A stretch of DNA of 55,120 nt from Gemmatimonadota bacterium (lineage in GTDB: Bacteria; Gemmatimonadota; Gemmatimonadetes; Gemmatimonadales; GWC2-71-9). Below the pieces are notes generated by a model. The model was not told the origin of the DNA. It saw only the letters and a program-made list of their open reading frames with translations, and did no database searches. Both the position numbers and the translations under genes were made by a program. The stretch covers positions 1 to 55,120 of the forward strand of contig JACQVB010000219.1 in the NCBI GenBank assembly GCA_016209985.1, in the 5' to 3' direction. Of this stretch, positions 1-23,288 are shown piece after piece. Numbering within the stretch: the stretch's first letter is position 1; the number at the start of each line of letters is the position of its first letter.

Positions 1-42
1 GGCTTAGAAGGCCGATGCTCTGTCCAACTGAGCTACGGGCGC
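1..42 (-). tRNA. tRNA-Arg(TCT), 5' part only
   Basis: The minus strand reads as the 5' half of a tRNA: a GCGCCCG acceptor strand, TA, a D-arm starting GCTC, and an anticodon loop CTTCTAA with anticodon TCT. The 3' half lies beyond the left edge, so the acceptor and T-arm cannot be checked. Isotype is taken from the anticodon only. Confidence 0.85.
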
Positions 43-122
43 CCGGTCCAAGGTTGAGGATGTCGCGCCGGCTGCGCAAGAGAGCGACTTGCGCACGGCG
101 GCCCCTTCTCAGACGTTTGGTT

Positions 123-635
123 GTGAACTGTACAATCAAATACCGGCTTGCCGGTATTGCATCCGTGGCCTTGATTCTCAGCCTGCTAAGTGGCTGCCGG
201 GAGAAGGTCCCGCCACGGCATCTGGTGCGGCTCCAAGCGTTCATGTGCAGCAAGCCAGAACAGACCAAGTGCAGTGGCGTTCCGCGGGGCGCTCCGATTT
301 CCCCGGAGAGTCTTCCGCCGGTTAATGAGGCCTTTCAGGTGTGGGCCTGGCATCCCGGAACCGGAAAGGTCGTCTACCGAATCGAATGGCAGAGCCCGTT
401 TTTCGTCGGAGACAGCGGAGCCCCGGTAGCAGCGAAGCGGAGCGAGACGGAGTTGGAGGCGGCGATCGACTCGAGCACGCTCTCCTACAACTTTGCGTCG
501 GCGGCTCGAACCCGCTACCTGCTGAGAGTGTTGCTGTTGACGCCGAAGGGACGGATCCAGGACGAGGACTCACTCGTGTGGGACTATACTCGCGCGGCCC
601 CGTCGGCATCGCTCCAACCGGAGCACGGTCATTAG
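123..635 (+). CDS. putative secreted lipoprotein, unknown function
   Basis: About 170 residues from a GTG start at 123, chosen because it leaves a short basic n-region (CTIKYR), a hydrophobic core and a lipobox LLSG followed by Cys at residue 26. An ATG at 60 is also in frame but would put a long Arg-rich tail in front of the signal. After the Cys the protein shows no domain I recognise; the middle has a Trp/Tyr-rich stretch that could be a small beta-sandwich. It lies on the chromosomal side of the left attachment site, between tRNA-Arg and the duplicated tRNA-Pro segment. Probably periplasm-facing and lipid anchored; function unknown. Confidence 0.6.
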   Translation: MNCTIKYRLAGIASVALILSLLSGCREKVPPRHLVRLQAFMCSKPEQTKCSGVPRGAPISPESLPPVNEAFQVWAWHPGTGKVVYRIEWQSPFFVGDSGAPVAAKRSETELEAAIDSSTLSYNFASAARTRYLLRVLLLTPKGRIQDEDSLVWDYTRAAPSASLQPEHGH

Positions 636-653
636 CCTGGATCCGCGAGTCAA

Positions 654-695
654 TCGGGGCGCCGGGATTCGAACCCGGGACCTCTTGGTCCCAAA
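654..695. repeat. attL: 42-bp duplicate of tRNA-Pro 3' half
   Basis: Identical over 42 bp to 9482-9523. It contains the T-arm, variable region and half the anticodon stem-loop of tRNA-Pro in minus orientation, then diverges at 696 where an intact tRNA would continue with the anticodon 5' stem. It is therefore a residual attachment core and not a functional tRNA. Confidence 0.92.
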
Positions 696-753
696 GCCTG
701 CCTGTCGCGCCTTCGAAGTGATCATCTGAGCACCTCTCCGCCTCGGGACTAGC

Positions 754-1485
754 TCATCCTGAACCGGTTCCGTCCCCCGCATCGTTCGTCTCGGACCGCG
801 TGTGGGCACTCTTTTGGGCACTTAGTTTTCTGGCAAGTTGGGCGGTTACCTTGACCCCCACCGTCTGCAGCAGGTGCTTCTTGCACTCCGCCAGTTCGGC
901 TCGTGCGGTCGCGATGACAACCTCGGCATTCTCGTGCGGATCTTCCCAGCGGAGCAGGCTCGCGGTCTGCACGAGAACCTCCTTCGCTTCGAGGAAAGTT
1001 GTGAAGGCCGGATAAACAAACTGCTGCACGCTCTCTGAGGCCTGCCCGGCAAGAGCAGCGAGTTCGATCATGCGCGGTTCGATGCCTCGCAGCTGGTCGG
1101 CGATGGAGCCCACCGTCCCGAGATCGCCCAAGTCCTTCATGTCCACATCGTGCTCGATGTCAACCTCGATTGCCGCGACCTCCTTCTGGAGCGCGTGCGC
1201 GCGTATCCGGACCTGTTCATCGGTAGCATCTCGTCGCCGCCTCTCATCCTTTCGCTGGTAGTAGATGGTCAGCCCAGCGAACCACGCCAGGACGACCGTC
1301 GTGAAGAGGTTAACGAACGTGACGGTGAGCTGCTTCCAATCCGTTTTCGGATTCTGCAGCACCCACAGTGTGTCGTGCACGACGGTCGCGGCCTGTTGGA
1401 CCGGGGTTGCTGCTGCCTGAAGGAGGAACATCCGGGATGCCGCCAGGGGTGCAAGAGGACCGGAAGATGCGCCGCAGGCGGGCAC
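754..1485 (-). CDS. single-pass membrane protein with long helical cytoplasmic domain, unknown
   Basis: 243 residues if started at GTG 1485; an ATG at 1431 (residue 19) is an equally good start and neither has a clear ribosome site. One strong membrane segment spans roughly residues 55-77 and is followed by a positive patch (KDERRRR), which places the C-terminal ~165 residues in the cytoplasm. That part is charged and helical, with no motif I recognise. It is the only minus-strand gene in the element and sits directly inside attL, divergent from the terminase. In satellites and prophages this edge position often holds accessory genes such as superinfection-exclusion or defence genes; that role here is only a guess. 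Confidence 0.6.
   Translation of the reverse strand: MPACGASSGPLAPLAASRMFLLQAAATPVQQAATVVHDTLWVLQNPKTDWKQLTVTFVNLFTTVVLAWFAGLTIYYQRKDERRRRDATDEQVRIRAHALQKEVAAIEVDIEHDVDMKDLGDLGTVGSIADQLRGIEPRMIELAALAGQASESVQQFVYPAFTTFLEAKEVLVQTASLLRWEDPHENAEVVIATARAELAECKKHLLQTVGVKVTAQLARKLSAQKSAHTRSETNDAGDGTGSG
801..821 (+). promoter_or_regulatory. candidate integrase arm-type site, left end
   Basis: TGTGGGCAC at 801-809 is followed five bases later by GGGCAC at 816-821. The same pair (TGTGGGCAC, then GGGCAC) occurs at 9385-9404, on the same strand and at a similar distance inside the other end. It overlaps the 3' part of the membrane-protein gene. Interpretation as integrase or excisionase arm sites is inference. 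Confidence 0.35.
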
Positions 1486-1505
1486 CTGCCTAGGTGGGGC
1501 CAGGG

Positions 1506-1618
1506 GGTCAGATGATCAACCCCCAGACGGAATAACATGATCACCTGATCATTCTGACCAGGGTACACAATGATCACCTGATCAACTTTTCATATACGGC
1601 GGTTTTGATCATCTGACC
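1506..1618. promoter_or_regulatory. TGATCA repeat cluster: candidate origin or operator array
   Basis: Six TGATCA hexamers lie in 115 bp (1513, 1538, 1546, 1571, 1579, 1606). A 13-bp perfect inverted repeat, GGTCAGATGATCA at 1506-1518 and its complement at 1606-1618, encloses two direct copies of ATGATCACCTGATCA (1537-1551 and 1570-1584) spaced 33 bp apart. The same TGATCATCTGA word recurs once at 719-729 beside attL. The block is less GC-rich than its surroundings and sits between the divergent membrane-protein and terminase genes, which suits a divergent operator or an iteron-type replication origin for the PrimPol protein. The remaining 260 bp to the terminase contain no gene I can support, only a short AAGG/CATAAG repetition at 1672-1709. 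Confidence 0.6.
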
Positions 1619-1880
1619 TTTCTCTCACCCCTGGTCGCCGGGCTCCGCATGGTCCGGAACCAAGGGGTCAAGGCCGCATAAGTCGTTGTCGATCAAGGCA
1701 TAAGGCATCGTCGTCGTGCCCACACTGATGCCCGCTCGGCCCGTATCCGGGCCCTAATCGGACCCACTACCCACCCTAGTCCCGCTTCAAGCAACACCCG
1801 TGGCCCCCCGGTGACACCGAGGGCCCTCCAAACCCGTCCGCCAAGCTCGTTCCTCGCCTTCCCCCTGCCAGGAGTTCTCG

Positions 1881-3380
1881 ATGCCCCGAGGCAATCCGAA
1901 CATCGCCCAGTACGCCGCGAAGGGAGCGGCGGCTGCCAAGAAAGCCCGGCAAGAGAAGCGCGCCGCAGCGGTGCCCATCGACACCCGGTTCGTGCGGTAC
2001 CGGGACGACCCTGCCGCTTTCGTCACCGACTGCCTGGGCGCCACCAGCGCCACCCGGAGATCGGACGGCAGCCCGTACCAGTTCCAGGTCCTGGCCGACC
2101 TCGCCGCGTTCCCGCGCGTGGCGGTCCGCTCCGGCCACGGCATCGGCAAGTCGGCGCTCGACAGCTGGGCCCTGCTGTGGTTCCTGCTGTCCCGTCCCCA
2201 CTCCCGCGTCGTCGTGCTGGCGCCCGAGTACAGCAGGCAGATCCGGGCCATCCTCTTCGCCGAGGTCCGCCGCTGGGTACGCCGCGCCACGGTGAAGCTG
2301 CCGGTCCAGGTGCTCGCCAGCCGCGTCCAGGTCGGCGACTACGGCGACGCGTGGTCGGCGCAGGGCATGTCCACGTCGGGCGACCCGGACAAGATCGAAG
2401 GTTTTCACAGCGAGGAAGGCGGCGTGCTGGTCATCGCCGACGAGACCAAGGGCATCCCGCAGGCCGCCTTCGACGCGATCCAGGGGGCGCTCTCCTCCAG
2501 CGGCGGCGACTCCAAGCTGCTGGTCACCAGCGTCCCCGGCGGCGCGGGTGCTGGGCCGTTCTGGAAGATCTTCGCGCGCGGCGGGTCGCGCTGGAGGATG
2601 CACCACGTCCCGAGCACCGACTCCACCTTGGTCGCGCCAAGCTGGCTCGACGACATGGCCGGCGAGTGGGGCATCGGTTCTCCGCTCTGGCAGACGCGAG
2701 TTTTGGGCGAGTTCGCCGATGCCGGCGAGGGTGTGATTTTCCCGCTCTCGCTCCTGGAGGCCGCCATGCAGCGCGGGCGGGAGCCGGTCGTCCGCAACGT
2801 CTATGCGGAGGCGATGGCCGCGCCGGAGCCGGTGACCCTGGGCGTGGACGTGGCGCGCAGCAGCGACGGCGACCTGAACACGATCGCCGAGTGCCGGGGG
2901 AACCGGACGCGGGTGCTCGCCACGTGGCGCTCGCCGGACACGATGGTGACGACCGAGAAGGTCGTGCAGACGGTGGCCACCAGCGGTGCCACGCTCTCCC
3001 GCGTGGACGTGACCGGCGTCGGCGCGGGTGTGGCCGATCGCCTGGCGCAGCTCGGACACGCGACCGTGGCGTTCGCCTTCGGCGGCGGCGCCCGTGACCC
3101 ACGCCGGTTCCGCAACGGGAGGGCGGAAATTTTTTGGGGCCTACGTGAACGGCTGGAGAAGGACCTGTGTCTACCCGACGACGATCAGCTGTTCGCCGAT
3201 CTGAGTTCGCTCCGGTATTTCTTCACGGCGTCCGGACAGATCCAGCTGGAGAGCAAGGACGAGACGCGGCGGCGCCTCGGGCGTTCGCCAGACCGCGCCG
3301 ACGCGGTGGCGCTGGCCTGCGCGGCGCCGGGTGTCGCCGGGTCGGCGTGCACGGGGCTAGCGGACATGATCGATATCTAG
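1881..3380 (+). CDS. terL: phage terminase large subunit (ATPase-nuclease)
   Basis: 499 residues, a normal length for the family. The start ATG has a CAGGAG ribosome site 6-11 bases upstream. The N-terminal ATPase shows a Walker A GHGIGKS at about residues 85-91 and a Walker B VLVIADE near 181-187. The C-terminal RNase H-like nuclease shows an LGVDVARS strand with its first acidic residue near 322, a DVTGVGAG strand near 376, and a final acidic SPDRADAVA motif near 471. Known family role: pumps phage DNA into proheads and cuts concatemers. No small terminase, portal or capsid gene accompanies it, so its partners would have to come from a helper phage. Domain identity is strong; the helper idea is inference. 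Confidence 0.88.
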   Translation: MPRGNPNIAQYAAKGAAAAKKARQEKRAAAVPIDTRFVRYRDDPAAFVTDCLGATSATRRSDGSPYQFQVLADLAAFPRVAVRSGHGIGKSALDSWALLWFLLSRPHSRVVVLAPEYSRQIRAILFAEVRRWVRRATVKLPVQVLASRVQVGDYGDAWSAQGMSTSGDPDKIEGFHSEEGGVLVIADETKGIPQAAFDAIQGALSSSGGDSKLLVTSVPGGAGAGPFWKIFARGGSRWRMHHVPSTDSTLVAPSWLDDMAGEWGIGSPLWQTRVLGEFADAGEGVIFPLSLLEAAMQRGREPVVRNVYAEAMAAPEPVTLGVDVARSSDGDLNTIAECRGNRTRVLATWRSPDTMVTTEKVVQTVATSGATLSRVDVTGVGAGVADRLAQLGHATVAFAFGGGARDPRRFRNGRAEIFWGLRERLEKDLCLPDDDQLFADLSSLRYFFTASGQIQLESKDETRRRLGRSPDRADAVALACAAPGVAGSACTGLADMIDI

Positions 3381-3416
3381 GCGCGCCGCTACCACCCTTC
3401 GAACTCCGCTGCAGAT

Positions 3417-3434
3417 AAGCACTTACAAGTGCTT
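3417..3434. promoter_or_regulatory. palindromic operator-like site
   Basis: AAGCACTT-AC-AAGTGCTT is a perfect 8-bp inverted repeat with a 2-bp spacer, located 37 bp after the terminase stop. The shape fits a dimeric HTH regulator site; three XRE regulators are encoded downstream. No T-run follows, so it is not a terminator. Confidence 0.4.
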
Positions 3435-3466
3435 TAGTTGAAGTGAGAATTCGTTGCACAAATCAA

Positions 3467-3497
3467 CGGGGGCGTGTAGGTTGTGCCCCCGCTTTTC
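3467..3497 (+). terminator. intrinsic terminator after the terminase gene
   Basis: CGGGGGC (3467-3473) pairs with GCCCCCG (3485-3491) around an 11-base loop, followed by CTTTTC. It would end the terminase transcript and isolate it from the following small gene. Confidence 0.6.
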
Positions 3498-3552
3498 ATC
3501 CGATTCAAACTCGTTTCGCTCCGCTGAGATGCGGAGGGGGAGAGGACGACCC

Positions 3553-3822
3553 TTGCCCAAAACCGTGTACTGCTCCAGGCGTACCTGCGGCATTCCCTGC
3601 TCCGGCCTCTTCTATATACAGACGATGGCACGGGGTCGAAAAAGAGTGCTGTGCGCCCGGTGCGCTCTCGGACGGGTTGGTGGAAAGAGGATGAAAGGGA
3701 ACATGAAACGGGTTTCCGGCATCCGCCTGGTTGGAGATCGGGCGGCCGCCCAGGTATTCAGTGAACGGAGTGCGAAGCATCGGGTTGCGTGGATACGGTG
3801 GCAGCGGACCCGTGCTGCGTAA
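3553..3822 (+). CDS. small basic cysteine-rich protein, possible zinc ribbon
   Basis: 89 residues from a TTG at 3553, preferred because GGAGGGGGAGAGG at 3532-3544 is a strong ribosome site just upstream; an in-frame ATG at 3529 overlaps that site. Cysteines fall at about residues 7, 12, 16, 34 and 37, the last two as CxxC, which could bind zinc. The rest is Arg/Lys-rich and likely binds nucleic acid. It follows the terminase terminator and precedes the strong promoter at 3855. No family recognised. The reading frame is open well upstream and base composition is coding-like, but with no homologue in view it could be spurious. Confidence 0.4.
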   Translation: MPKTVYCSRRTCGIPCSGLFYIQTMARGRKRVLCARCALGRVGGKRMKGNMKRVSGIRLVGDRAAAQVFSERSAKHRVAWIRWQRTRAA

Positions 3823-3854
3823 AAGAATAGAGGCACAAAAACAGATTTCTAACG

Positions 3855-3882
3855 TGGACATTCGTTAGGCCTACGGTATAAT
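3855..3882 (+). promoter_or_regulatory. strong sigma-70-type promoter with an internal palindrome
   Basis: TGGACA (-35, five of six consensus bases) at 3855-3860, a 16-bp spacer, and a perfect TATAAT at 3877-3882. The spacer contains the 8-bp palindrome TAGGCCTA (3866-3873), a repressor-type position between the two boxes. Start of transcription is expected near 3888-3891. Confidence 0.75.
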
Positions 3883-3887
3883 TTCTT

Positions 3888-3986
3888 ATTAACGGGAGGG
3901 GCGAAGCAGTTTGCCCTTCCGCCCGAAGACGAAATACCCAACCAGAAAGGTCTCGCAGCCATCGTGGCGCGGGACCTTTTTGTTTT
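3888..3986 (+). ncRNA. candidate ~98-nt regulatory RNA with two hairpins
   Basis: The transcript from the 3855 promoter would contain an 11-bp hairpin (3895-3905 with 3910-3920, loop GCAG, two G-U pairs), a 25-base unpaired linker, and a terminator hairpin ending in a T-run. No convincing reading frame fits inside. It lies directly ahead of three XRE repressor-like genes. Two readings are possible: a free-standing small RNA, like the immunity RNA of satellite P4, or a leader with an attenuator controlling the regulators. Structure is read from the sequence; function is inference. Confidence 0.5.
3946..3986 (+). terminator. intrinsic terminator/attenuator before the XRE cassette
   Basis: AAAGGTCTCGC (3946-3956) pairs with GCGGGACCTTT (3969-3979) with one G-U pair. 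The hairpin extends through GCCA/TGGC over a TCG loop, with a single bulged A at 3957. TTTTTGTTTT follows (3977-3986). This is the strongest hairpin-plus-T-tract in the element. Confidence 0.75.
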
Positions 3987-4011
3987 CCACCCCAATGGAG
4001 GACCAGACCAA

Positions 4012-4272
4012 GTGACCAAACCCCCGAAGCATTCCATCCAAGTGAAGGTGTGGCAGCTGCGAGAACTGTGGGGCTGGAGCCAGGCCGATCTGGCCACCGC
4101 GGTCGGCGTCTCGGTCCCGTATCTGTGTCTGATCGAAAAAGGGCGGGTCCTGCCGAGCCTGCGACTGCTTGGCGCGATCGCCGAGGCGCTGGGCATCCAC
4201 GTCGCGGCCCTGCTCGAAATGTCGGCCTTGCGCGCCCCGATCCATCCCCGGAGGCGCCGTGCGCGAGCCTGA
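4012..4272 (+). CDS. XRE-family HTH regulator 1 of 3
   Basis: 86 residues from GTG 4012, chosen for the GGAGG at 3996-4000; an earlier in-frame GTG at 3964 lies inside the terminator hairpin and is unlikely. A canonical Cro/C1 helix-turn-helix spans about residues 10-66, with the WSQADLATAVGVSVPYLCLIEKGR core and the SLRLLGAIAEAL helix. No sensor or cleavage domain follows, only a basic tail. It begins 26 bp after the terminator, so its expression may depend on read-through. It overlaps the next gene by 14 bp. Likely a repressor/antirepressor component of the element's lysogeny-like switch; the target is unproven, with the palindromes at 3417 and 3866 as candidates. Confidence 0.75.
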   Translation: MTKPPKHSIQVKVWQLRELWGWSQADLATAVGVSVPYLCLIEKGRVLPSLRLLGAIAEALGIHVAALLEMSALRAPIHPRRRRARA

Positions 4273-4471
4273 TCTCAACTGCTACTCCGGGCCCCGGCTC
4301 ACCCGTCGCCGGGAACGCGCGCGTCTGACCATCGAGGATCTGAGCGATCGGTCCGCCGTCCCGGTCTCCGTGATACGCCACGCGGAGATGGCGCCAGGCT
4401 ACCGGATGAACCGCGAATGTCAGCGGCGCCTGGATCAGGTGCTCCTGCCCCGACCTATGTGGATGTCATGA
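4259..4471 (+). CDS. divergent XRE-like HTH protein 2 of 3
   Basis: 70 residues from GTG 4259, supported by CGGAGG five bases upstream and by overlap with the end of regulator 1. Residues about 14-62 follow the XRE pattern (LTRRRERARLTIEDLSDRS, then PVSVIRHAE), but less typically than regulator 1. It is a single domain with no extra region. Its stop overlaps the ATG of regulator 3 (ATGA), so the three are probably translated together. Small one-domain XRE proteins often bind as dimers or heterodimers; heterodimer formation here is speculation. Confidence 0.6.
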   Translation: MREPDLNCYSGPRLTRRRERARLTIEDLSDRSAVPVSVIRHAEMAPGYRMNRECQRRLDQVLLPRPMWMS

Positions 4472-4665
4472 CCGGCCGCGAGCTGCGCGCCCGGCGGAAG
4501 GGGCAGAACATGCCCATCACCACCCTGGCCCGCCTGACCGGCTACGGCGTGCAGGCCCTCCGCCGTTTTGAAAGCGGCCACCCGCCCCGAGAGGCCGTGC
4601 GTCGGGTCCTGTGGGCGCTGGGCATCAACCCCGACGAACAACCCCCAGAGGAGAACACCCCATGA
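4468..4665 (+). CDS. XRE-like HTH protein 3 of 3
   Basis: 65 residues from the ATG that overlaps the previous stop. It reads MTGRELRARRKGQNM, then TTLARLTGYGVQALRRFESGH, the turn and recognition helices of an XRE domain, and a final helix containing VRRVLWALGI. The protein is little more than the HTH itself. It overlaps the following gene by ATGA, so translation runs through. Sequence differs strongly from the other two regulators, so the trio did not arise by very recent duplication. Confidence 0.65.
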   Translation: MTGRELRARRKGQNMPITTLARLTGYGVQALRRFESGHPPREAVRRVLWALGINPDEQPPEENTP

Positions 4666-5195
4666 CGGAACAACAGCTGCGGAAGGTGCGCCTGAGCGAC
4701 GGCACCGAGGCGCTCGCCTATGTCGATAACGTGATCAGCATCGACGAGCATATGCGGAGGATCAGCGACGTCGGCCAGGAGCTGTACGACCGGCTCATCA
4801 AGCAGGTCAAAAAGCCGGTCACGATCACGCGCGAGGAAGCCAGTGACGGCCCGACCTGGCGGCGCGCCCGGGATCGCGCCCTGGCCGCGGGCGTCAAGCT
4901 CGTGATCGAGGATGAGCCCGGCCACGATCCGTTCGTGCCACCGCCGCCCCGACCGGGGATCGATGTCATCCTGACCCGCGAGCAGGCCAACGACCACGCG
5001 CTGTACCAGCTCGCGAGCGCGAAAGCGCAAAAACGCGGTGGCACCGTGCGCGTGGCCGAGGACAAACCGTATCACGAGAAGATCGGGCTTACGAAGGAAC
5101 AGGCCGCCGATCCAAACCAGTATGAGGCCGCCCGCAAAGCGGGGGAGAAGGTTGAGACGGATCGTCGGCAGCAGATCGTGGACGCCCTGCCATGA
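4662..5195 (+). CDS. triple-repeat protein of unknown function
   Basis: 177 residues from ATG 4662, coupled to the XRE cassette. Three copies of one ~32-residue unit are visible: residues 53-84 (VTITREEAS...), 102-134 (VILTREQAN...) and 151-167 (IGLTKEQAA..., shortened). Shared pattern: hydrophobic-x-L/I-T-x-E-Q/E-A-x-D, then a helix with Y/W and alanines, then a GxxVxx strand and ED. The middle is a proline-rich linker (about 93-98). Strand-helix-strand repeats of this kind suggest a small scaffold or binding protein. No family recognised. Position between regulators and replication genes suggests an element-specific role. Confidence 0.65.
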   Translation: MTEQQLRKVRLSDGTEALAYVDNVISIDEHMRRISDVGQELYDRLIKQVKKPVTITREEASDGPTWRRARDRALAAGVKLVIEDEPGHDPFVPPPPRPGIDVILTREQANDHALYQLASAKAQKRGGTVRVAEDKPYHEKIGLTKEQAADPNQYEAARKAGEKVETDRRQQIVDALP

Positions 5196-5368
5196 AGAAG
5201 CCAACGCTCCATGGATTCAAGACGGACCCGTCCGGTCCGAAAAAGCTGAAGGGCGGGAAGGCCGCACCCCCGCCGAGCCCGCAGGTGGGTCCGACCATCC
5301 AGACCGCCTACCCGCAAGGCCGCGAGGTCCAGGCGGCGGAAACCGGTATCCGGAGGCTGCGCCCATGA
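5192..5368 (+). CDS. small basic protein, unknown
   Basis: 58 residues, starting with an ATG that overlaps the TGA of the repeat protein and ending in an ATGA overlap with the next gene. The composition is Lys/Pro/Gly-rich in the first half (MKKPTLHGFK, then several KK and PPP), likely disordered. Support is its position: both junctions are overlaps typical of translational coupling in a compact operon. No function can be assigned. Confidence 0.45.
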   Translation: MKKPTLHGFKTDPSGPKKLKGGKAAPPPSPQVGPTIQTAYPQGREVQAAETGIRRLRP

Positions 5369-5520
5369 AAACGCTCATGCCGGAAGACCTCGTCGCGATC
5401 GAATGCGCGTTGAACCGGGTGACCGACGTGCTGCTGAACGAGATCACGCCGTTGTTGCAGGAGATGGCCGTCTCCTTACGTGCCGTCGCCCGGCAGACTC
5501 CCGCCCCGAAAGGAACGTGA
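5365..5520 (+). CDS. small helical protein, unknown
   Basis: 51 residues from ATG 5365, overlapping the previous stop. The sequence forms one long amphipathic helix (EDLVAIECALNRVTDVLLNEI, then a second helix LQEMAVSLRAVARQ), consistent with a small coiled-coil or dimerising adaptor. It ends three bases before the next start, so it belongs to the same operon. No known family recognised. Confidence 0.5.
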   Translation: MKTLMPEDLVAIECALNRVTDVLLNEITPLLQEMAVSLRAVARQTPAPKGT

Positions 5521-5523
5521 ACG

Positions 5524-5844
5524 ATGGAGAAGATCCTCTCGCTGATCCCCGCCCCGGCAGGGGTATACGCCGCCTATGCCAACCGGCACGGTGTGGAAAA
5601 GGTGACGGTGCAGGCATACGCGTTGATCGAAAACGCCCTGGGGGAGCGGGCGATGTTGCCTTGCGTCCTGGACGGGGACACCCTGCGGCCGGCGCGCGAT
5701 CGCAGCGGTTTTCTCGGCTGCTCCGACCACCCCTGGTCGCGGGAGGCCTGGGCCGCGAAGGGCGATGCGTGGCGACACCGCTTCAAAGCCAACTGGCAGC
5801 GGGCGCTGAAAGAAGGCGGGTCCGCTCCCGTTCCTCTCAAGTAG
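5524..5844 (+). CDS. hypothetical protein of the element
   Basis: 106 residues. The ATG has a GAAAGGAACGTGA ribosome site directly upstream. The protein is acidic-to-neutral in its first 60 residues, with AYANRHGVEKVTVQAYALIE and a Cys in MLPCVLDG, then Trp-rich (HPWSREAWAAKGDAWRH). It is cytoplasmic, with no signal or membrane segment. No motif recognised. It is the last gene before the hairpin at 5923 and the replication gene. Confidence 0.5.
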   Translation: MEKILSLIPAPAGVYAAYANRHGVEKVTVQAYALIENALGERAMLPCVLDGDTLRPARDRSGFLGCSDHPWSREAWAAKGDAWRHRFKANWQRALKEGGSAPVPLK

Positions 5845-5911
5845 TCTGGACGAGCACCACCACCGATCAGATCGCCCGGCAGAAATCCACCCGCCACCGG
5901 GGGCCAGGGAG

Positions 5912-5952
5912 GAAAAAGAAAAGCCGTCCCCATTCGAGCGAACGGGGACGGC
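5912..5952 (-). terminator. intrinsic terminator oriented to the minus strand
   Basis: GCCGTCCCC (5923-5931) pairs with GGGGACGGC (5944-5952), with TTC/GAA stacking inside. On the minus strand this is followed by CTTTTCTTTTTC (5911-5922). There is no T-run on the plus strand. Genes on both sides are plus-strand, so it would block antisense transcription entering from the replication gene. The hairpin may also weakly stop plus-strand transcripts. Confidence 0.55.
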
Positions 5953-5971
5953 GGAAGGATGCACCCTGACC

Positions 5972-7753
5972 ATGGGTACCCCAAATTTACCCCCCGACAA
6001 CTCCGAGAGCCACGCCCTGCTGATCGCCGCGCTTTCGTATGCGAAAGCTGGCTGGCGGGTCTTCCCGCTCACGCCCGGGCAGAAGCAACCGCCGCTCGTT
6101 CCTGACTGGCCGAACCTCGCGACCACCGACGAGCGGCAGATCCGCACCTGGTGGGCGGACCATCCCCGCGCGAATATCGGCATCGCGACCGGCGCCGCCA
6201 GCAATCTCTTCGTCCTCGACGTGGACGGCCCCCAGGGCGAGCGATCGCTGGCCGCGCGTTTCTCTGATCTCCCGCCGACCCGCGAGGTCAAGACACCACG
6301 CCCCGGGCGCCATCTGTATTTCTGCGATCCGCCCCCGGACGTCGCTTCCTCGGTCGGGAAGCTCGGGCCCAGGCTCGACACCCGCGTCAACGGTGGCTAT
6401 GTCGTGGCGCCGCCGAGCGTGGTCAACGGGAACGCGTACACCTGGACGAATCCCGACGCTTCCCTGAGGCGGGTTCCGCCCGCCCTGCTCCCCTCTCCGG
6501 TTACTCAGCCCACCGCGATCTCCGAGGGCCAGCGCAACAGCAAGCTCTTTCACCTGGCCTCGCGCCTTCGCGGCATCGGGCTCGGTGACGAGGCGCTGCG
6601 CGAGGCAATCAAGGCGGAGAACCAGCGCTGCGACCCGCCGCTACCGGAAGAAGAACTGGAGGAGACGATCTTCCGGTCCGTCCTCCGGTATCCGGAAGGT
6701 GCTCCTGCCCCAACCTCAACCCTGGCGATCACCGCGTTCGCCGACATCGAGCCGGAGGTCGTCCGCTGGCTCTGGCCGAAGGTGATCCCCTACGGAAAGC
6801 TGACGCTGCTCATCGGCGATCCGGGTCAGGGCAAATCGTTTCTCACCGTCGATCTGGCCGCGCGCGTCTCGGTGGGCGGCACCCTGCCGGACGGTTCGAC
6901 GGTGGACGCGGCGGACGTGCTCCTGGTGTTCTGCGAGGACGGCGCGGGCGATACGGTCAAGCCTCGCCTCAAAGCGGCGGGGGCGGACGAACGCCGCGTG
7001 CATGAGGTGACGGTCACCGGGCGCGACGGTGCCCCTCGGCTGCTGGTCGTGCCCGACGATCTCCCGCCCCTCCAGGTGGTGATCGAGAAGACGGGCGCCC
7101 GTCTGGTGGTCCTCGATCCAATCTCGGCGTTCCTCGGCGAGAAGGTCGATAGCTGGAAGGACGACCAGGTGCGGCGCGCGCTCGTGCCCATCTCCCACCT
7201 GGCGGAGGCGACCGGCGCCGCGATCGTCGCGATCCTCCACCTCAATAAGAAGTCGAGCGCCAACGCAGTACATCGGGCCATGGGGTCGGTGGCGTTTACC
7301 GGCGTGGCCCGCTCGGTGTTCATGGCTGGCCCGCATCCCGAGGACAAGGAGCTGGAGCTGCGGGATCAGCGGAAGGTGTTCGCGCCGGTCAAGATGAACC
7401 TGACCCAGGCGCCCCGGTCCCGGGTGTTCCGGATCGTGGAGGCCGAGGGCGTGGCGCGGGTGCTGTGGGAAGATGAAACGCGGCACTCAGCCGAGGACGT
7501 GCTCACCAGCCAGATGGGGGTCCAGGCCACGCCCGAGGGCGCGCTCGAAACAGCCCTGCAGTTCTTGAGGGAGACGCTGGCGGGTGGACCCCGCCCTGCG
7601 AAGGAGATCTTCGACCTCGCCAAAGGGCAGGAAATCAGCGACGTGACGTTGCGGCGCGCTGCCGACCGGGGCGTGATCAAGCGGCAGGAGAAGGACGTGA
7701 CCGGCAAACGCTGCTGGACGTGGGCGCTGTCCGACGTGAAGGAGAACTTCTGA
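5972..7753 (+). CDS. PrimPol-AAA replication protein (primase/polymerase plus helicase)
   Basis: 593 residues. The N-terminal third is a bifunctional primase-polymerase domain: GWRVFPLTPGQKQP near 27-40, a catalytic LDVDG near 82-86, a PRPGRHLYF strand near 110, and GYVVAPPS near 143. The C-terminal half is a RepA/RecA-like AAA domain with Walker A GDPGQGKS near 283-290 and a hydrophobic-plus-D motif VVLDPISAFLG near 375. A short helical C-terminal region follows. Family role: primes and unwinds DNA to replicate plasmids, phages and satellites. The likely origin is the TGATCA array at 1506-1618. GGAAGG at 5954-5959 is the ribosome site. The stop overlaps the next ATG. Confidence 0.88.
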   Translation: MGTPNLPPDNSESHALLIAALSYAKAGWRVFPLTPGQKQPPLVPDWPNLATTDERQIRTWWADHPRANIGIATGAASNLFVLDVDGPQGERSLAARFSDLPPTREVKTPRPGRHLYFCDPPPDVASSVGKLGPRLDTRVNGGYVVAPPSVVNGNAYTWTNPDASLRRVPPALLPSPVTQPTAISEGQRNSKLFHLASRLRGIGLGDEALREAIKAENQRCDPPLPEEELEETIFRSVLRYPEGAPAPTSTLAITAFADIEPEVVRWLWPKVIPYGKLTLLIGDPGQGKSFLTVDLAARVSVGGTLPDGSTVDAADVLLVFCEDGAGDTVKPRLKAAGADERRVHEVTVTGRDGAPRLLVVPDDLPPLQVVIEKTGARLVVLDPISAFLGEKVDSWKDDQVRRALVPISHLAEATGAAIVAILHLNKKSSANAVHRAMGSVAFTGVARSVFMAGPHPEDKELELRDQRKVFAPVKMNLTQAPRSRVFRIVEAEGVARVLWEDETRHSAEDVLTSQMGVQATPEGALETALQFLRETLAGGPRPAKEIFDLAKGQEISDVTLRRAADRGVIKRQEKDVTGKRCWTWALSDVKENF

Positions 7754-8091
7754 TGCGCGCCCCCATGTGTACGTCCGGACCCTCGCAAACTATTAATACC
7801 CTGGTCGAGGCGTGGCGGGCCGAGGCCGAACATTACGCCCGCGACGGCGCGCTGGTCCGGGGCGATCTGCTGCTGCTCCGGGTGGCCGACGAGATGGAGC
7901 GCGCGCTCGGTCAGGCGGCGCTCGAAGCCCTGGTGGTGAAGGACGCCGCTGCCGAGGCCCGCGTCTCACCGGGGACGATCCGGCGCTGGCTCCGCGAGGA
8001 GCGGCTGCCGAACGTCGGGACGAAAGGGAGACCTCGCGTACGGCGGGGCGATCTCCAGCGGAAACCGGATATGAGAAAGGAGCCAGCATGA
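7753..8091 (+). CDS. excisionase-like HTH protein
   Basis: 112 residues from ATG 7753, which overlaps the stop of the replication gene. The first ~65 residues are helical (VEAWRAEAEHYARDGALVRG, then LLLLRVADEMERAL). The C-terminal part contains a helix-turn-helix of the excisionase/MerR-like type (AAEARVSPGTIRRWLREERL, then PNVGTKGRPRVRRGDL). It overlaps the integrase start by ATGA, which matches the usual xis-int coupling. It probably bends DNA at the att sites and directs excision; it may also regulate. The family call is by HTH pattern and position. Confidence 0.7.
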   Translation: MRAPMCTSGPSQTINTLVEAWRAEAEHYARDGALVRGDLLLLRVADEMERALGQAALEALVVKDAAAEARVSPGTIRRWLREERLPNVGTKGRPRVRRGDLQRKPDMRKEPA

Positions 8092-9365
8092 GCAGGGGCA
8101 AGAAGCGCAAGGCCTGGAGCTACTCGACGGGGGCGTATAAGGAACGCGTCCGCGTCTACGAGCTTGCGGGCGGAGCCCTGGTTGCGGACATCCGCGAGGG
8201 GGGTCGCCGTCGTCGGGTCCGGCTGCCGCTCCGGGACAGGGGTGCGGCCATCGACTGGGCCCGCGAGCAGGCGGCACAGCGTGCCGTGGGCGTGGCCAGC
8301 GACGTGAGCCGACCGACGCCGACCGTGGCGTTCGTCCTGAGCCACTACCTCCACCACTGGCGGAGCAAGCGCGGTCGCCCGGTCGGTCCCGACGATCACC
8401 GGCGCGCCGAGCTATGGACCCGCGTGCTCGGGGCCCACACCGACGTGCGACGGCTCTCCTCCGCTGTGTGGCAGCGCTTTATCGAGGACCGCCGGGCGGG
8501 CGCCATCGATGCCCGGGGCGAGCGGGTGCCGCTGGAGGGCCAGGTCATCGGCGAGCATCCCGACGGCACCGTACGCCGCCGACCGCGCCGGACGGTGCTG
8601 GCCCGTGCGGTCGAGGCCGACTGCGAGTGGCTGGTCGGCGTCCTCGCCTGGGCGGTCAACTGGCGAGACCAGGGGGCGTACCTGCTGACGGAGAATCCGG
8701 CGCGCGGCCTGCCGATCCCGCGCGAGACGCAGCCGCGCCGCCCGCTGGCGACGCAGGACCGGTTCGAGGCGTTGCGGGCCGTGAGCGACCAGGTGCAGAT
8801 GGAGATCCGCTGGAAGGGTCGCCGCCAGCGGCAGCGGTCCTACCTCCGGGAGCTGCTCGACCTGGCCAACGGGACCGGGCGCCGCATCGGGGCCATCTGC
8901 CAGCTACGGTCGGATGACCTGCGCCTCGACGTGAAGCCGCACGGCGCGATCCGCTGGCCGGCCGATACGGACAAGATGGGCGCCGCGTGGTTCGCGCCGA
9001 TCAACGCCGAGGTGCGGCGCGCGCTGGACCGGATCGCCGTCGAGCGGCTGACCGGCGCCTGGGCCGAGGCGGACTCACCTTTCCTGTTTCCTTCCCCGCA
9101 GCGACCGGGCAAGCCCGTCTCCAAGGATCTCGCAGCGGCATGGCTCGAAGAGGCGGAGACGCTGGCCAAGCTGGACCATCTGCCGCGCGGCGGCTTCCAC
9201 ATGTTCCGCCGGAAGTGGGCCACCGATCGCAAGGCGCTCCCCGTTACCGATGTGGCGGCGGCGGGCGGGTGGAAGACCCCCTCGATCGTGACGGACATCT
9301 ACCAGCAGGCGGACGCGGAGACGCTCCAGCGCGTGGTCGATAACGACCGGGAAGGGCGAGGGTAG
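8088..9365 (+). CDS. int: tyrosine recombinase (integrase)
   Basis: 425 residues from ATG 8088; the frame is open further upstream but that part is the shadow of the excisionase gene. It has an N-terminal arm-binding-like region, then a core-binding domain, then a catalytic domain with GRRIGAICQL (Arg about 266), HMFR (His 371, Arg 374), GGWKTPS (Trp 396) and the nucleophile Tyr at 405 in DIYQQ. The usual Glu after the first catalytic Arg is Ala here, which is tolerated in some members. It reads toward the right attachment site. It joins the 42-bp tRNA-Pro cores on integration and, with the excisionase, reverses it. Confidence 0.93.
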   Translation: MSRGKKRKAWSYSTGAYKERVRVYELAGGALVADIREGGRRRRVRLPLRDRGAAIDWAREQAAQRAVGVASDVSRPTPTVAFVLSHYLHHWRSKRGRPVGPDDHRRAELWTRVLGAHTDVRRLSSAVWQRFIEDRRAGAIDARGERVPLEGQVIGEHPDGTVRRRPRRTVLARAVEADCEWLVGVLAWAVNWRDQGAYLLTENPARGLPIPRETQPRRPLATQDRFEALRAVSDQVQMEIRWKGRRQRQRSYLRELLDLANGTGRRIGAICQLRSDDLRLDVKPHGAIRWPADTDKMGAAWFAPINAEVRRALDRIAVERLTGAWAEADSPFLFPSPQRPGKPVSKDLAAAWLEEAETLAKLDHLPRGGFHMFRRKWATDRKALPVTDVAAAGGWKTPSIVTDIYQQADAETLQRVVDNDREGRG

Positions 9366-9384
9366 CGGGCTTGGATCGCGCCGA

Positions 9385-9404
9385 TGTGGGCACGAAGCGG
9401 GCAC
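9385..9404 (+). promoter_or_regulatory. candidate integrase arm-type site, right end
   Basis: TGTGGGCAC (9385-9393) and GCGGGCAC (9397-9404), mirroring 801-821. GCGGGCACCTGC at 9397-9408 is also repeated exactly at 1478-1489. It lies about 80 bp inside attR, after the integrase stop. No other feature is visible in 9366-9481. Confidence 0.35.
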
Positions 9405-9481
9405 CTGCGCTCCTCAGGGGGCGCGGGGCTCGCGCCGGACGAGGGCCCTCAACTACCTTGGTGCATGCGAGTTAGGAAGAG

Positions 9482-9523
9482 TCGGGGCGCCGGGATTCGA
9501 ACCCGGGACCTCTTGGTCCCAAA
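9482..9523. repeat. attR: 42-bp core inside tRNA-Pro
   Basis: Identical to 654-695. Here the core continues into the 5' half of a complete tRNA-Pro, so integration kept the tRNA functional by supplying its 3' half. Confidence 0.92.
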
Positions 9524-9555
9524 CCAAGCGCGCTACCGGACTGCGCTACGCCCCG
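9482..9555 (-). tRNA. tRNA-Pro(TGG)
   Basis: 74 nt without encoded CCA. Acceptor CGGGGCG pairs with CGCCCCG, the D-arm is GCGC...GCGC, the anticodon loop holds TGG, and the T-arm CCGGG-TTCGAAT-CCCGG is perfect. It is the integration target of the element to its left. Confidence 0.95.
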
Positions 9556-9602
9556 CGACGACCGGTGAAATTAAGCGAAGCCGGTCAATCGCGCCTCTTT
9601 GG

Positions 9603-23191: not shown

Positions 23192-23288
23192 TGGCGGGAG
23201 CGTGTGGGAATCGAACCCACCGGAGCCACCACTGGCGTCTCCCAGCAGTTTTGAAGACTGTGCAGACCACCAGGCCCGATCCGCCCCC
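23192..23288 (-). tRNA. selC: tRNA-Sec(TCA), selenocysteine
   Basis: 97 nt including an encoded CCA. Anticodon TCA sits in loop CTTCAAA (23252-23254 on the plus strand). The long variable arm, GTGGG-TTCGATT-CCCAC T-arm and G73 are typical of selC. The acceptor pairs GGGGGCG with CGCTCCC (one G-U), and the eighth position is a G-A mismatch. Its presence implies that the host inserts selenocysteine at UGA; no selA, selB or selD lies in the window. Confidence 0.93.

Follow-up and report, generated by a model that had tools for sequence, protein, structure and literature searches.

An integrated element of 8,828 bp, situated at a tRNA-Pro gene of a Gemmatimonadota contig, is probably a phage satellite that would use its own terminase large subunit (TerL) to load its DNA into the heads of a helper phage. 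Related TerL-encoding elements occur in other members of the phylum, and the chances are roughly even that they make up a Gemmatimonadota-wide family of capsid-less satellites which supply the whole packaging motor, TerL usually being accompanied by a TerS-like protein and sometimes by a tape-measure-like protein. All of the data considered here are sequences from metagenome-assembled genomes (MAGs).

Boundaries and insertion site

The element lies within positions 654-9523 of the window, by which is meant the whole stretch of 55,120 nucleotides that was analysed, and its 8,828 bp are also the predicted excised unit. It is bounded by a 42-bp direct repeat that corresponds to the 3' part of tRNA-Pro(TGG). 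Its features are as follows.

654-695: distal copy of att (42 bp) at the outer boundary, exact match to 9482-9523
754-1485, minus strand: membrane/coiled-coil protein, possible cargo adjoining att, without Pfam, PHROG or PADLOC match
1506-1618: cluster of palindromic TGATCAYCTGAYC sites with ~33 bp spacing, recognised by count against expectation, function putative
1881-3380, plus strand: TerL, 499 aa (phrog_2, E=1e-31), ATPase and nuclease motifs intact
3964-4272, plus strand: XRE-type HTH regulator (Pfam HTH_3, 4e-11)
4169-4471, plus strand: weak HTH ORF overlapping both neighbours (HTH_31, E=0.014, below cut-off)
4417-4665, plus strand: HTH regulator (HTH_31, 9e-7)
4665-5195, plus strand: ORF for a 176-aa protein with three internal repeats (by eye), without family; AlphaFold pTM 0.28
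5524-5844, plus strand: 106-aa protein without family match
5972-7753, plus strand: PrimPol-PriCT_1-AAA_25 replicase (Prim-Pol 7e-46, AAA_25 1e-31)
7720-8091, plus strand: Xis-like HTH_17 protein (2e-6), 48% identical to its G144 homologue
8088-9365, plus strand: tyrosine integrase (Phage_integrase 5e-13, phrog_1 4.5e-27)
9482-9523: proximal att copy inside tRNA-Pro, exact match to 654-695
9481-9555, minus strand: intact tRNA-Pro(TGG), the integration target (ARAGORN; Rfam 71.8 bits)

An earlier note, made from the sequence alone, had described the att duplication in tRNA-Pro, a coupled xis-int pair, a PrimPol-AAA replicase, a regulator cassette (the HTH genes at 3964-4665) and an intact TerL in less than 9 kb, with no capsid, portal, tail or lysis gene. 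Each of these points is borne out by the matches listed and by the scans reported below. It passed over ORF 754-1485, the palindrome cluster at 1506-1618 and the separate position of TerL.

The chromosomal context agrees with an insertion. In genome G007 rdgB, tRNA-Pro and tRNA-Arg occur in the same order, the two tRNA genes being separated by 1.56 kb that contain no element of this kind, and this synteny of the flanks counts in favour of the satellite insertion reading. The contig itself begins inside tRNA-Arg (Rfam, window 1-42), the 5' part of which forms the left end of the window. An int-TerL element is also found at tRNA-Pro(TGG) in G111, and the site appears to be a hot spot of integration. 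Composition provides no contrast, the GC content of the element (0.671) being near that of the rest of the window (0.660). At the syntenic site two further genomes (G001, L237 2595-2635; G014, L238 364-402) yielded the 5' half of tRNA-Pro(TGG) only, no 3' half being found within the stretches retrieved from either. Elsewhere in the window ARAGORN predicts a selenocysteine tRNA with a TCA anticodon (23192-23288).

Gene content

The genes of the element are mostly on the plus strand, with ORF 754-1485 as the minus-strand exception. The replicase, xis and int genes form an overlapping block, in which xis and int share 4 bp, and TerL stands apart from it. Ten ORFs were scanned, two very short ones (5192-5368 and 5355-5520) being left out, and among these ten no Pfam or PHROG family for capsid, portal, tail or lysis proteins was matched, TerL being the sole structural family. 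The same scans matched no relaxase or conjugation family in the element, and PADLOC gave no match for either the cargo ORF 754-1485 or TerL. The element combines features that are general to phage satellites, namely integration at an att site with an integrase and excisionase and, within the ten ORFs, the absence of a full set of virion genes; a packaging-redirecting role would fall to TerL, for which it is putative.

The motif TGATCAYCTGAYC has 14 matches in the window at no more than two mismatches, against 3.5 expected, and six of them fall within 1506-1618. This TGATCA cluster, the count of which is significant, is located upstream of TerL and has a stable predicted fold (z=-4.8); it may serve as a replication origin, as an operator or as a site recognised for packaging.

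The terminase and its relatives

The family profile of TerL matches the Sf6 Gene 2 protein (4ife) at 5e-17, and Walker A, Walker B and the three nuclease motifs are all present. Pairwise comparison of the window TerL with the other members of its clade gives dN/dS ratios of ~0.3 to 0.6 which, with dS above 1 and near saturation, are indicative of constraint only roughly.

A TerL protein search of 395 genomes of the phylum detected relatives in 10 genomes and a profile search of 394 genomes of the class detected them in 16, the window's own genome included in both cases. In the TerL tree the window protein belongs to a clade of six (clade I, support 100/99) together with those of G021 (CP070666.1, a Gemmatimonadota MAG), G025, G111, G282 and G081, all of which are from Gemmatimonadota. 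A second group (100/99) unites G144, G319, G188, G260 and G035 and belongs to the same type of element. Two clade I sequences are relics and were set aside: the TerL of G021 has no integrase nearby, and that of G025 is a fragment with a kinase fusion, in which the N-terminal two thirds of TerL are joined in frame to a Ser/Thr kinase-STAND sequence (L008:13734-15887), either genuinely or by an assembly join.

The best match to the window TerL in the viral collection is 39% identical, and a single-protein scan of viral contigs yielded no close relatives of either TerL or PrimPol. The viral TerLs of L113 and L114 are placed near clade I in the tree; L113-L115 were considered as satellites and rejected, as ORF inspection revealed portal-like genes after TerL, and they look like phages. 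No larger intact copies of the window TerL lineage were found in these searches, and one distant relative of the window integrase and Xis lies with head and tail genes (see below).

Related elements in other Gemmatimonadota

Three relatives have TerL within recognisable boundaries and no portal or capsid gene was found in any of them. The 14.0 kb element of G319 is flanked by a 47-bp exact repeat at tRNA-Cys and encodes an integrase, TerL, a TerS-like protein, Xis, an AAA_25/DnaB replicase, a tape-measure-like protein (phrog_1535, 3e-17) and an AbiZ-like cargo protein. The latter, a DUF6161/AbiZ-like protein (L029:17518-18717), adjoins the att of the element and is possibly a defence cargo. 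The 7.9 kb element of G081 has a 57-bp exact repeat at tRNA-Leu; its TerL adjoins a TMP_3 protein and its integrase is frameshifted and split between two frames. In G188 an 8.7 kb element at tmRNA has an imperfect repeat (20/23; 0/200 shuffles) and contains int, AAA, TerS-like and TerL genes. Further loci are less completely delimited: G335 has int, an AAA primase, TerS (phrog_51, 3e-28) and TerL at tRNA-Ser with no distal att found, G035 has int, a Prim-Pol/primase and TerL with a 43-bp repeat pair at 88% that is uncertain as att, and G144 has int, Xis, TerS-like and TerL genes with no att found. The earlier note had put forward as a check the co-occurrence of TerL, PrimPol and integrase in tRNA genes of related genomes. 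TerL and integrase do occur together in the tRNA-Cys, tRNA-Leu and tmRNA elements and at the tRNA-Pro and tRNA-Ser loci; nor are the relatives all larger complete prophages, the outcome it had named as damaging, given the att-bounded elements with TerL and without portal or capsid.

Other loci are of a different nature. The int-TerL locus of G282 comprises a MuF-like head protein (phrog_241, 1e-53), a TerS-like protein and TerL at the contig end, and may be a cut prophage; the gene for the MuF-like minor head protein (L025:5058-6404) lies near the integrase and the locus ends at the contig edge. The candidate in G286 was rejected since its TerL is accompanied by a portal according to PHROGs, making it a prophage. 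A search of 11 genomes for the portal family PF04860 and the capsid family PF05065 returned no match, a result that covers these two Pfam families only and also misses the G286 portal. A 4.6 kb contig of KSB1 (L057, JABWAN010000582.1), on which an HTH gene, a primase-like ORF and TerL adjoin, is possibly a similar element outside Gemmatimonadota.

Upstream of TerL, G111, G144, G188 and G319 encode small TerS-like proteins that are homologous to one another; matches to them are weaker in G282, G021, G025 and G081, and tblastn detected no homologue in window 1-9600. Structure models of the TerS-like protein of one relative and of the 176-aa window protein are both of low confidence. The lone TerL emphasised by the earlier note thus holds for the window element and not for the group: because a small TerS-like gene accompanies TerL in most relatives, and a recognised TerS in G335, the window appears to be the exception among them. 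As the window element keeps only TerL, DNA recognition would have to be provided by TerL, by a small protein not recognised as such, or by the TerS of the helper.

Module exchange and a phage-like relative

The Xis and integrase of the window are homologous to those of G144 (48% and 40%), the TerL of which belongs to the other clade, and the window replicase is homologous to that of G188 (30%). Likewise, G319 and G335 have Int and Xis in common while their TerL lineages differ. This pattern suggests that modules have been reshuffled, with one Xis-Int pair occurring alongside more than one TerL lineage.

Among viral sequences the window integrase matched only L324/L325 (IMGVR_UViG_3300017649_000022), in which the integrase is 46% identical and accompanied by a related Xis; a search of phage records with the integrase gave none. 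L324/L325 spans ~16 kb between 45-bp tRNA-Ser repeats and contains a Prim-Pol-like ORF; inspection of its ORFs further points to TerS, a TerL apparently of HK97 type, and genes for portal, protease, capsid and tail. The same inspection distinguished head, connector, tail-tube-like and short tape-measure-like genes and no lysis or fibre gene. The Int/Xis lineage of the window thus seems to drive both capsid-less and phage-like elements. Because this distant relative resides in an element with head and tail genes, it is possible that the window element originated by loss, though apparently not by simple deletion of L324/L325, since the window TerL has no match in the fetched part of the latter.

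Proposed mode of action and alternatives

It is proposed, from the att sites and gene content, that the element is excised from tRNA-Pro by Int and Xis and replicated as a circle or concatemer by the PrimPol-AAA replicase. Upon infection by a tailed helper phage its TerL would take the place of the helper motor, dock onto helper portals and load the element DNA into helper heads. In most relatives the small TerS-like protein would assist with recognition; some also have a tape-measure-like protein.

The main alternative is a defective prophage, a small temperate phage stripped of the genes for head, tail and lysis, of which int, xis, the replicase and TerL are left over. L324/L325, with its related Int and Xis, Prim-Pol-like gene and virion genes, and the relic TerLs of G021 and G025 lend this some plausibility, and the earlier note's preference for a satellite over decay is accordingly upheld only in part. 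In line with its argument from compact overlapping genes, Rep, Xis and Int are intact and overlapping. Decay of a single prophage nevertheless appears less likely than a capsid-less satellite architecture that recurs, because the same capsid-less set is present in several att-bounded elements at different tRNA and tmRNA genes, the clade I TerLs of Gemmatimonadota group together and away from phages, and Xis-Int is found with different TerL lineages; the lack of a TerL match in the fetched part of L324/L325 points the same way. A defective prophage is therefore considered unlikely, although it is the strongest of the alternatives.

TerL could instead be an anti-phage factor that competes for the portal or TerS of the helper, the element moving by generalised transduction or conjugation. 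Interference and defence genes are common in satellites, and the missing recognisable TerS partner in the window and the AbiZ-like gene of G319 would fit such a role. However, TerL keeps both its nuclease and ATPase motifs, neither of which a decoy would need, and the relatives keep a TerS-like gene beside it, which makes interference improbable. Slightly less probable again is a plasmid-like integrative element with TerL as a passenger gene: among the plasmid sequences that match the replicase most closely are AAA/PrimPol plasmid replicases, but TerL and integrase recur together in several distinct element backbones and the element has no match to relaxase or conjugation families. A satellite with its own TerL is the preferred reading.

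Comparison with known systems

TerL is not in itself new to satellites, as the cfPICIs carry TerL and TerS together with capsid, portal, protease and connectors (PMC10690885). The earlier note's candidate new satellite family gains from the recurrence of related TerL elements in Gemmatimonadota but cannot claim novelty for TerL carriage as such. Like cfPICIs, the window element is integrated and has int, a replication gene and its own TerL (with TerS in relatives); unlike them, it has no recognised capsid, portal, protease or connectors. Within the open-licence subset of the literature searched, neither a capsid-less satellite carrying TerL nor any phage satellite of Gemmatimonadota was found.

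PICIs redirect packaging by means of TerS or Rpp, relying on the TerL of the helper (PMC10690885). The window element resembles PICIs and SaPIs, which redirect packaging, in its tRNA-type att, int, Xis-like and HTH regulators, replicase and lack of head genes, but among its recognised genes TerL stands in place of a TerS- or Rpp-type redirector. PICMIs, which have no known packaging-redirecting gene (PMC10803314), and AH14b, which has a primase and no recognised terminase (PMC4936722), are likewise small satellites that lack a capsid and have genes for integration, replication or both, and differ from the window element in that the latter has TerL. Putative satellites associated with RepA_N encode tape-measure proteins and capsid genes but no terminases (PMC10448857); their partial structural sets are reminiscent of the tape-measure proteins of G319 and G081, whereas they have capsid genes and lack the terminase. 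The ATPase and nuclease regions of TerL match by profile the Sf6-type enzyme (Gene 2 protein, PDB 4ife/4idh), from which the window TerL is distant and, in addition, located outside a phage structural module. The capsid-less satellites compared here redirect the motor of the helper or depend on it fully, and a satellite that brings its own TerL would, if the proposal is correct, take over packaging at a different point. It would also place phage satellites in Gemmatimonadota and mean that TerL, taken by itself, marks phages poorly in metagenomes.
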